NCBI RefSeq assembly: GCF_029223285.1
Contig: NZ_JARHUJ010000003.1
Span: forward strand, 372,001-436,000
DNA from: Paraflavitalea sp. CAU 1676
GTDB lineage: Bacteria > Bacteroidota > Bacteroidia > Chitinophagales > Chitinophagaceae
DNA: 64,000 bases
Reading direction: 5' to 3'
Both the position numbers and the translations under genes were made by a program. The notes below the pieces were generated by a model. It worked only from the letters and a program-made list of their open reading frames with translations. It was not told the DNA's origin and did no database searches. Below, one piece after another: positions 48,577 to 55,904 of this stretch (within the stretch, counting starts at the first letter, position 1; the number at the start of each line of letters is the position of its first letter).

Positions 48577-49251
48577 ATGAACATTCGAAATGTACTCCTG
48601 TTAGCTATCGCTTTAGTCTCGCTACTTGCTTGTAAAAAACAGGGCCCACAAGGTTTCAAAAGCCTCGTGGACATCCAGACGGAAGCACCCGGAGCAAAAT
48701 GCGCCACCGGCGGCCTGGCCGTCAAGTCCGGAATCGACAGGAACAACAACAATACACTGGATGCCGATGAAGTAGAAAACACGAATTTCGTTTGCAATGG
48801 GAGTACTGGCCCCGTTGGTCCGGCTGGTCCGGCTGGTCCGGCTAGCCCAGCTGATAAATTCATAATGATCAGATTATTCGAGGGTGTGTATGGAATAGGT
48901 GGTGCCGGGAACATTACCTATGGGCCGTTCTATAAGTTCAACAAAAAGAATTACCCCGGTGTGGATTCTATTGTATTTGCCGCCCGGCCTTACATAAACC
49001 ATTACGGTACCGGTGGAGCTGTTATCGTAGATCTCGTCAACAAAACCTCCAATTCAGTCATCGACAATTCCCAGATGACCGGCACCAAGAATGGTATTTC
49101 ATATAATGATTTACCACCTTTCCAATACTCAAAGAACATCTATAATAGTATTCCGGATGGCGACATAGACCTTGGGGTGAAAGTAACTGTGCAGGAACAA
49201 AGTCAACAGGGATACGTGTTCGATGGCTGGCTGTTTCTCTACAGGAAATAA
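48577..49251 (+). CDS. Lipoprotein with DUF7151-like repeat and short collagen-like stretch
   Basis: 224 residues from the ATG at 48577 (MNIRNVLLLAIALVSLLAC, lipobox LLAC, Cys19, then Lys-Lys). Residues ~22-80 match the small DUF7151-type module: GAKCATGG, IDRNNNNTLDADEVENTNFVCNG, which looks like a Ca-binding EF-loop with a disulfide. A short collagen-like run follows (GPVGPAGPAGPA, about 14 residues). The last 130 residues are a beta-rich domain that I do not recognise (FYKFNKKNYPGVDSIVFAA ... GYVFDGWLFLYRK). Probably displayed at the cell surface. Function unknown. Confidence 0.78.
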   Translation: MNIRNVLLLAIALVSLLACKKQGPQGFKSLVDIQTEAPGAKCATGGLAVKSGIDRNNNNTLDADEVENTNFVCNGSTGPVGPAGPAGPASPADKFIMIRLFEGVYGIGGAGNITYGPFYKFNKKNYPGVDSIVFAARPYINHYGTGGAVIVDLVNKTSNSVIDNSQMTGTKNGISYNDLPPFQYSKNIYNSIPDGDIDLGVKVTVQEQSQQGYVFDGWLFLYRK

Positions 49252-54165: not shown

Positions 54166-55032
54166 TTACTCCACCCCCAGGATCTTCGCAGCACCAGCAT
54201 AACGTGCAGCCTGGATATGGGTGGCATTTTCCTGGTAGCCGTACACAAAGCCAACGGCCAGGATCAGGGTATGATTGCTGTTGGGTGGTTCCGCTACCAG
54301 CTCCAACTCCATCGTGGTGGCAGGCATGCCTTGTTTCACCGGATGCCACATGGTCATCAAACTCGTTGGGGCCGCTTGAAAGTACGCATAGCCAGGATCG
54401 GAAAACGTATATTTATGAACATAGGAGGCAGCCATCGGATTGGTGAAACTGTCATAAGATTTATCGATCGGTGCACCATTTTGGGTAAAGAACAGATCGG
54501 GCACCAACCCCAAAGAGACCATGATCGAAAACCAGGGATACTTCTCATTGGGGAACAGGTTTACGTAAGGCTTCAGCTCCGGAATCGTGATCAATACCGA
54601 CGTCTGGCTCTCGAAAAATTCATACTCTACCGGGGTACGCACAATGGCATCGAAATTAGCGTTGCGGTTGAGCGAAAAACCTTTCAGTATTTCCGGGTTC
54701 CTGGTAAGTCGCAGCGCCCGCTGGCCATAGATGTTGTCTTCATCCATATCCTGGATGGGTTTCAACAGGGAATTGATAGGGCCGGCAATATTGTAATCGG
54801 CCAGTGTTTTATGGAACAATAAAGACTTAAGGATCCACTTGCTCATGGCGGCGCGTGCGCCAAACTCCGAGTTGTTGCGACGCGTCATTTCAAACCTCTC
54901 GCCCGTTTTCACCTTCTCTCTCGAAGGTCCGCCTTTTCGACGCACGACAGGCTTTTCAACACCTCTCATTTTGTAGACAGACAGGTTTCCGACAGAGCCG
55001 GAAAAATCGAATGATTCGTTCAGTTTTCCCAT
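54166..55032 (-). CDS. Conserved unknown protein with N-terminal glycine/basic segment
   Basis: 288 residues from the ATG at 55032 (MGKLNESFDFSG); 55059 is a possible earlier start. No signal or membrane segment. The N-terminal ~60 residues (FSGSVGNLSVYKMRGVEKP, VVRRKGGPSREKVKTG, then TRRNNSEFGARAAMSKW) resemble a recurring Bacteroidota N-terminal motif seen in proteins with GSIGNLTFYK-type starts (DUF6266-like), whose role is unknown. The remainder is mixed alpha/beta and unrecognised, with a hydrophobic strand pair near the end (HTLILAVGFVYGY). The upstream region carries a striking mirror array of 11-bp repeats. Function unknown. Confidence 0.72.
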   Translation of the reverse strand: MGKLNESFDFSGSVGNLSVYKMRGVEKPVVRRKGGPSREKVKTGERFEMTRRNNSEFGARAAMSKWILKSLLFHKTLADYNIAGPINSLLKPIQDMDEDNIYGQRALRLTRNPEILKGFSLNRNANFDAIVRTPVEYEFFESQTSVLITIPELKPYVNLFPNEKYPWFSIMVSLGLVPDLFFTQNGAPIDKSYDSFTNPMAASYVHKYTFSDPGYAYFQAAPTSLMTMWHPVKQGMPATTMELELVAEPPNSNHTLILAVGFVYGYQENATHIQAARYAGAAKILGVE

Positions 55033-55090
55033 ACAACAAGCATTTAAAAGGTAAGTCAATCAGTACTTGCAGGCTCAAAAGCGTCAAGGA

Positions 55091-55205
55091 TGTTCCGCTT
55101 GTTTCCCGCTCTTATCAGGTAATTGTTCCGTAGATATCCCGTATCTATAAGGGACGGGATATCTACGAGACAACTACAAGACATATACGGAACATATACG
55201 AGACA
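55091..55205. repeat. Mirror-symmetric array of 11-bp repeats (5 + 5 units)
   Basis: Right arm in + orientation: GGGACGGGATA (55151), TCTACGAGACA (55162), ACTACAAGACA (55173), TATACGGAACA (55184), TATACGAGACA (55195). Left arm read on the minus strand, from centre outwards: GATACGGGATA (55145-55135), TCTACGGAACA (55134-55124), ATTACCTGATA, AGAGCGGGAAA, CAAGCGGAACA (55101-55091). The centre is TATAA (55146-55150). Consensus is about nnTACGRGACA. The innermost units create a 14-bp perfect inverted repeat (55129-55142 and 55154-55167). Units repeat once per helical turn, as for several protein copies on one face of the DNA. It lies 59-173 bases upstream of the start of the unknown gene at 55032. 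Confidence 0.8.
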
Positions 55206-55239
55206 TCAATAAAGTCAGATTGGGGATAGCCACAAAAAA

Positions 55240-55266
55240 GGCCGGCAGTGATGTACACTGCCGGCC
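55240..55266 (-). terminator. Terminator of the DoxX gene at 55334
   Basis: GGCCGGCAGTG-ATGTA-CACTGCCGGCC, 11-bp perfect stem, T-run behind it in minus direction. Confidence 0.85.
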
Positions 55267-55269
55267 ATG

Positions 55270-55344
55270 GGCTATACCTGATTATTTACGAACGTTTTAG
55301 GCGATGAGCTATACTTGATTAAGGTTGATCTCTTTAGGCGATGG
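55270..55344. repeat. Imperfect direct repeat (period 38) copying the DoxX gene end
   Basis: Copy A 55270-55306 and copy B 55308-55344 both begin (G/A)GCTATAC(C/T)TGATTA and end TTTAGGCGATG. Copy B includes the stop codon and last codons of the DoxX gene; copy A looks like a decayed second copy of that end. Confidence 0.5.
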
Positions 55345-55756
55345 CGCTGGTAACCAGGCTGTCTGCCGGCCGACCCGCCAACCGGACCTGATCCTGCATT
55401 TTCTTTCTTTTGGTATAGAAATAATAGCAGAGGGCCAAAAAGCCGATAAAGATCAGGTTGAAAACCCAGGCGGAACTACCCACCGAGTAGACGGAATACG
55501 TGGCGCCGACGAGGTCGAAGAAGAAACCGGCATAAGCCCATTCCTTGATCTTGTGAAAACCCGGCACCAGGATGGCAATCACGCCGAGCGTTTTTAATAC
55601 GCCGATAAATGGAATGAAGTACAGTGGGTATCCCAATACGCCGTTCATGAACTGTACCGCTTCGGGATTGTTTACGATATCCGGCAACGCCGAAAACAAC
55701 ATAAAGGCTCCGAAGAGACCATTGAAAACCCAGTAGAGGATGTTGATCTTTTTCAT
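55334..55756 (-). CDS. DoxX-family membrane protein
   Basis: 140 residues from the ATG at 55756 (MKKINILYWVFNGLFGAF). Four helices: ILYWVFNGLFGAFMLFSAL, YFIPFIGVLKTLGVIAILV, GFFFDLVGATYSVYSV and AWVFNLIFIGFLALCYYFY, followed by a basic tail (TKRKKMQDQVRLAGR). The PLYFIPFIGVLKTLGVIAIL block with a later GAxY is typical for this DoxX-like branch. It stands alone. Redox or membrane-protein role is possible, but unproven. It is divergent from the cardiolipin synthase gene. Confidence 0.85.
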   Translation of the reverse strand: MKKINILYWVFNGLFGAFMLFSALPDIVNNPEAVQFMNGVLGYPLYFIPFIGVLKTLGVIAILVPGFHKIKEWAYAGFFFDLVGATYSVYSVGSSAWVFNLIFIGFLALCYYFYTKRKKMQDQVRLAGRPADSLVTSAIA

Positions 55757-55904
55757 GGCTATCATTTTTTGATAGCACAAAACTATAAAGCACCTACGGC
55801 ATTTGCGGGCGGTGTATCCGTCAATCTAAGGGGGCCAATGCGACGATCAACCCCTTTTTTGATCTACCTTAGCATCATCCCATCAAATCACTTAGCCTGG
55901 ATCT

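Follow-up and report, generated by a model that had tools for sequence, protein, structure and literature searches.

The window analysed here, a stretch of 64,000 nucleotides, contains a mirror-image array of ten 11-bp units around a TATAA centre at positions 55091-55205, upstream of a gene at 54166-55032 on the minus strand. The better conserved arm comprises five direct units on the plus strand (55151-55205), for which the sequence and an alignment of copies give the consensus nnTACGRGACA. The TATAA (55146-55150) lies within a core of 11-12 bp, rich in A/T, that separates the arms of aligned copies. On its other side, in minus orientation, are two inner inverted units (55124-55145) that are well kept across array types, and three outer inverted units (55091-55123) that are degenerate in most types. 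The outward decay of the left units, which the first-pass annotation had described, is real, though the outermost of them is partly kept (GCGGAACA). A 58-bp spacer (55033-55090, minus strand) connects the array with the gene and contains TTACCTTTTAAA, which starts 22 bp before the ATG and resembles TTACCT stretches ahead of several other linked genes; it may have a promoter role. By covariance model R1, in which the conserved arm comes first on the model strand, the whole array was matched at 55081-55215 on the minus strand (G000:C17:427081-427215), with an E-value of 1.7e-17 and 126.6 bits for an array that is itself among the 23 training arrays.

The ten-unit mirror arrangement was confirmed by counting in-phase pairs of the form TACGRGACA-NN-TACGRGACA. 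At up to three mismatches, five such pairs occur in the window, every one inside the array, compared with a mean of 0.11 in shuffled sequence, and five were reached in 0 of 100 shuffles. The single 9-mer, at up to one mismatch, was observed 18 times where 17.0 were expected; this is chance level, and the phasing is therefore the special feature. Tandem Repeats Finder reports period 11 across 55164-55206. The lag-11 score at 55152, 31 of 44, is among the two top lag scores of the 64 kb, the other being 32 for lag 9 at 48796. We rejected a local curiosity or chance origin of the array on the basis of the shuffles, the copies found by the covariance model and the test for upstream arrays in relatives described below. 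On the far side of the array, an 11-bp inverted repeat without mismatches precedes a T run on the minus strand at 55240-55266, likely the terminator of a DoxX-like gene at 55334-55765; some arrays without a linked gene, hereafter orphans, also sit just past terminator-like hairpins.

The linked gene encodes a protein of 288 residues belonging to an unannotated Bacteroidota family (11-member alignment A3). The protein has no match in Pfam, NCBIfam, PHROG or PADLOC, the family profile matched nothing among PDB sequences, and no transposase or DNA-binding family was matched in the libraries searched. Neither this protein nor five other family proteins carry a winged-helix response-regulator domain of Pfam, and two AlphaFold predictions (pLDDT 44 and 56) gave uninformative models. 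Carriage by phage or plasmid was rejected, the protein having no match there, as was a defence system, with no PADLOC match for the protein. Relatives of the gene occur in 48 of 147 sampled genomes of the taxonomic family at E up to 1e-5, and a search of 296 genomes of the phylum gave matches in 25 at the limit used. The earlier statement that no standard feature class covers the locus is borne out within the libraries searched. No description of these arrays was found in the family libraries and open-licence literature searched, and the gene-plus-repeat system of Bacteroidota is apparently undescribed.

Dispersed copies and their genomes

Across the whole genome, the in-phase pair pattern at up to two mismatches gave 23 matches, all within five arrays; this count alone is not clean, because the backwards-pattern control at the same limit returned, beside 0 forward matches, 13 reverse matches at unlisted places. 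At up to one mismatch, there were 12 matches against 3 in the control. The proposal that units recur in phase and not at random spacing thereby holds within the window, and genome-wide it holds together with a backwards-pattern control that is unexplained. The same kind of genome search placed the CAGGCAATRTG type at nine places, one of them gene-linked, and the TATAGATGGTG type at a single, gene-linked place, with 0 matches in the backwards-pattern control for either. A scan of named genomes yielded 39 stretches, of which 18 were examined, the remainder, in unrelated phyla, being left out; it revealed further arrays in Niastella, Longitalea and a Chitinophaga MAG.

We built the covariance model from 23 arrays and counted distinct places at E up to 0.05, the E-values being rough. 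The model found 10 places in the window's own genome and 36 in four congeners (16, 11, 8 and one weak); 10 of these 46 places are training arrays, five from the own genome and five from G002. Array types differ in unit sequence, as in TGTCTCGTATA, ATAAGCCGTAG and ATAATCCAGAG, and have a common anatomy of five direct units, an A/T-rich centre of 11-12 bp, two kept inverted units and a degenerate outer part. The reading of the units as replication iterons is not supported, because each genome holds many dispersed copies. Among 41 arrays checked for context, four (own_C2, G2_f, G3_d and G1_b) overlap a predicted ORF start, probably owing to over-long ORFs.

Several further observations concern the distribution and form of such repeats. 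In G2_i (L109:5082-5217), about six nearly perfect units lie on the opposite arm, so that conservation falls on the other arm compared with the model. In the single-contig congener G003, all eight model arrays fall at 4.41-7.83 Mb of C1, less than half of the chromosome; the GC skew of 20 stretches of this genome carried too much noise for origin and terminus to be located. Similar 11-bp arrays are seen in Indibacter, Arthrospiribacter, Paludibacter and Pseudochryseolinea (L048, L055, L068, L074), with a member of the gene family adjoining the array in L074. Congener DNA at L141:13738-15760 has three lag-11 stretches of differing unit sequence within about 2 kb, and heptad-periodic DNA (lags 7, 14 and 21) is common in unselected DNA of G003 (L137-L156).

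The occurrence of arrays was compared with that of the gene. Model matches at E up to 0.01 were found in five of eight genomes with a close relative of the gene, one of which (G075) had supplied two training arrays, and in none of 16 without one. Under stricter filters, the search gave no match in 42 further gene-less genomes and one weak match in 18 genomes with distant relatives only; a model-type array was thus found in none of 58 gene-less genomes. In 84 genomes of the taxonomic family outside the genus, matches were confined to those carrying the gene family. The three genomes with a close gene and no model match may hold units too different for the model; G006, one of the three, does show an array upstream of the gene, made of different units. 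Retention of an array was expected in relatives with the gene and was observed, with differing unit sequences.

Linkage to the gene family

To 54 arrays, 41 of the 46 model places and 13 from the scan of named genomes, we applied a count of gene linkage; the other five model places, including G001:C2:2054634, which was read separately, are outside this count. A family gene adjoins 12 of the 54, and in 12 of 12 cases it lies 3' of the conserved arm in the same orientation; one of these 12 is a deletion derivative, and most copies are orphans. In the own genome, the linked copies number one of five for type A, one of four for type B and one of one for type C. Thirteen further family genes of this genome show lag 11 as the strongest upstream period in seven cases, with units unlike those of the window. 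Within the stretches examined, no linked gene was found for the single F-type array of G001 (G1_f) or for six arrays of the Chitinophaga MAG, one of which, yeo3, lies in a stretch with only 196 bp on its 3' side.

The upstream regions of the gene family gave a more general test. Among 25 lags, 11 and 22 stand out in 85 distinct regions. With 350 bp of upstream sequence and a lag-11 threshold of 24 matches in 44, an array was scored for 23 of 24 close family genes and 17 of 61 distant ones, compared with five of 230 control regions, unselected upstream regions of one congener. Since 11 of the 24 close genes and one of the 61 distant genes had been found through arrays beforehand, the clean figures are 12 of 13 (Fisher 1e-15) and 16 of 60 (Fisher 2e-8), leaving 44 of 60 distant genes with no upstream lag-11 array at this threshold. 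One gene below it within 350 bp (L160) has an array 411 bp upstream (L204). Genes from the phylum search had an upstream array in eight of 27 cases, and downstream of family genes the lag-11 threshold was passed in three of 65. The association with the gene downstream, first noted from its position, is upheld by both the co-orientation of the linked copies and the array-independent close relatives.

The distance between array and gene varies within narrow limits: for close genes, the best array window begins 104-321 bp ahead of the ATG, with a median of 192 bp. This spacing would suit a regulatory array, and certain regulators typically use tandem 11-bp sites. By such an account, the product of the linked gene or another factor autoregulates the gene and controls the neighbours of orphans, with dispersal reflecting regulon turnover. 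Also in its favour, a co-oriented 3' neighbour is found at 12 of 14 B-type orphans (L101, L102, L104, L107-L109, L111 and L117-L123; ORFs under 100 aa ignored), and arrays are kept at orthologous loci such as own_C1a/G1_c/G2_h/G3_d. By the same ORF rule, however, A-type orphans (L024-L027, L106, L112 and L114-L116) have a co-oriented 3' gene in only three of nine cases and several lie between converging genes, hinting that array types occupy different intergenic niches. Moreover, 20 neighbours scanned reveal no theme (methyltransferase, KDO transferase, NIF3, GidA, MacB-like and others, among them malic enzyme, M23 peptidase, MarR and DAHP synthase), and no DNA-binding domain was found in the linked protein. 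We therefore regard regulation as unlikely to be the explanation. A simple local operator, as first proposed, is not supported as stated, because most copies are orphans and their neighbour genes share no theme.

Conservation of copies, loci and pairing

Genome G107 has 29 distinct array places and allows the copies to be compared with each other. The comparison took 18 of 26 arrays, leaving out six of types II and III (three each) and two whose arms are swapped; three arrays at contig ends (L282-L284) were outside it. Among 17 orphans of one type, identity is 94.5% in the conserved arm, 97% in the loop and 86% in the two inner inverted units, falling to 65% in the outer part and about 27% in the flanks. 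Taken from sequence, this gradation suggests constraint on the conserved part and not recent copying alone; it fits site selection as well as recent copying.

Other copies bear on how arrays are duplicated. In G001, array and gene were duplicated as a unit, the two gene-bearing copies G1_d and G1_e being 89% identical over a region that begins about 38 bp ahead of the array and ends shortly after the stop codon, and another copy pair includes an internal-deletion derivative, G1_i, in which both ends are kept. Such a derivative, the nearly identical arrays in unrelated flanks of G107 and the number of array places in that genome would be expected of a non-autonomous mobile element moved by an unrelated transposase, with the family gene as a passenger. 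We consider this improbable, as many different array types are tightly linked to one gene family and inspection of the aligned flanks by eye revealed no target-site duplication. Within about 1.5 kb of the two Y1 transposase genes in the own genome no array occurs, and mobility by Y1 transposases was rejected on this basis.

With masked flanks, several linked and orphan arrays sit at orthologous loci in congeners, including the syntenic linked copies own_C17/G2_b, own_C18c/G3_h/G2_j and own_C20/G1_l. The own_C1a site, between ubiE-type and UbiA-type genes in the own genome, has a B-type array in own_C1a, G2_h and G3_d and a D-type array in G1_c. At the locus of the B gene, G001 has a D-type array and the gene is absent; at the own_C12 locus, it has an E-type array beside the orthologous gene. 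For the orphans own_C12 and own_C22, we inspected eight stretches of 1.5 kb beyond the orthologous gene, the G004 counterpart of own_C12 being a candidate position only. Four of the eight hold a lag-11 array scoring at least 29, and their unit sequence is different; unselected, mostly coding G003 DNA, with five arrays in 400 kb, would lead one to expect about 0.15. The own_C12, own_C22, own_C1a and own_C18c loci suggest that array positions persist while the sequence is replaced.

Conserved loci would also fit sites for chromosome organisation or segregation, at which arrays would seed a protein filament or anchor, with several types working free of cross-talk. The phasing of 11-bp units on one face is consistent with such sites, and so is the count of six lag-11 stretches (threshold 27/44) in a 400-kb sample of G003 DNA taken without selection. 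Against them stand types with anything from a single copy to at least 18, the mirror orientation, a linked protein lacking any ParM- or ParR-like domain, and the A-type orphans of the own genome, for which G002 showed no counterpart at the corresponding loci. On balance, we hold this role to be very doubtful.

The mirror arms could pair, and an RNA or cruciform element whose functional form is a long hairpin was considered in this light. Predicted RNA folds range from -26 to -78 kcal/mol over both strands and are lower on the strand with the conserved arm first in 16 of 23 arrays, and RNAalifold proposes an inner stem of 18 pairs, seven of them changed on both sides. Such double changes are expected, however, because the units are repeats. 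Pairing within an element equals pairing across elements in all five groups tested, and G.U pairs (147) compared with A.C (114) indicate little strand bias over 87 arrays, a set from which long1 and long2 were removed because they duplicate L265 and L266. Rfam gave no match that attained the gathering score of its family; mir-M7 scored highest, with 24.6 bits against 91. A structured RNA family was rejected for want of both a pairing-supported fold and an Rfam match, the attractive energies notwithstanding, and we give the hairpin very little chance of being the functional form. That pairing within elements is no better than between them points instead to recognition of the duplex.

Interpretation and comparison with known systems

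We favour, with a confidence just short of even, an explanation in which the arrays are double-stranded binding arrays that are maintained or spread with a cognate gene in the manner of domesticated REPIN-RAYT systems, though with an unrelated protein, and for which we infer both binding and mobility. The earlier suggestion of a phased array bound on one face of the duplex gains indirect support from the conservation of orphans and from the pairing tests. The window array would then be a gene-linked copy within a dispersed family of recognition arrays. Eleven base pairs are about one helix turn, and the protein of the linked gene, or a complex that it recruits, may bind one helical face of its own array and help to copy, convert or maintain the orphans. 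Most types examined have one or two copies that begin some 190 bp before a family gene in the same orientation, and 0 to 17 or more orphans elsewhere. Several results count against this explanation: neither a target-site duplication nor an exact empty site was found, the linked protein has no match to a transposase or DNA-binding family in the libraries searched, three of the eight genomes with a close gene gave no model match, some types show no linked gene in the stretches examined, and 44 of 60 distant family genes have no upstream array at the threshold used.

For 23 gene-linked arrays, array similarity was unrelated to protein identity (Mantel r -0.06), in a set where at least one extraction (L095) took a window downstream of the array. 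This lack of covariation counts against a simple code between protein and array: the recognition code may change fast or involve few residues, or another factor may read the arrays. An extension of the binding-array explanation treats the arrays as competing addresses, each paralogous protein founding and spreading its own and able to overwrite other types by homing-like propagation. We speculate on this as a possibility, albeit a rather unlikely one; if true, it would add a new class of homing-like propagation of DNA within genomes, driven in several Bacteroidota families by one protein family that has no known relatives. Many types coexist and change at fixed positions, which would allow direct tests of how protein-DNA recognition evolves. 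The results tie a recurrent, unannotated Bacteroidota gene family to a concrete DNA partner and provide it with a first function that can be tested; they also suggest that gene-plus-dispersed-repeat systems arose a second time, independently of REPIN-RAYT.

MITEs are small scattered elements without a gene that accompany an intact copy with one, and the arrays share with them this distribution and the mirror arms. They differ in matching no transposase family and in consisting of 11-bp units throughout, and no target duplication was seen by eye in their aligned flanks. Sites of the OmpR/PhoB type are 11-bp head-to-tail units on one helix face, as are the units here; the five-plus-five arrangement, the dispersed types and a linked protein that is not a response regulator set the arrays apart.

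Type II centromeres of the ParR/parC kind have serial repeats upstream of a gene, with units of 11 bp in plasmid R1 as in the present arrays, and the parC of R1 reportedly has ten repeats. ParR of R1 needs at least two 11-bp repeats, and several distinct types can coexist (PMC9426499). The arrays differ in being mirrored where parC repeats are all direct, in lying at many sites on chromosomal contigs and in the linked protein, which matches no ParR or ParM family.

In REPIN-RAYT systems, a REP adjoins the RAYT gene and several REP types occur. The linked gene differs from RAYT genes in not being Y1/HUH, with no match to PF01797 or any other Pfam family, and the five plus five 11-bp units contrast with two REPs around a diverse spacer. 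The arms of the arrays can pair, but do so no better within elements than between them. Each type has fewer copies than E. coli genomes have REPINs, for which PMC8049555 gives 69-235 per genome. That paper describes REPINs as dispersed inverted repeats with a vertically inherited cognate gene, tied to the genomes bearing it (PMC8049555). The arrays resemble this in each respect: they are dispersed, multi-copy, extragenic inverted repeats; most types examined have a cognate gene with one linked copy; the gene is apparently inherited vertically, with syntenic linked copies in congeners for three types; and the repeats are tied to genomes that have the gene.
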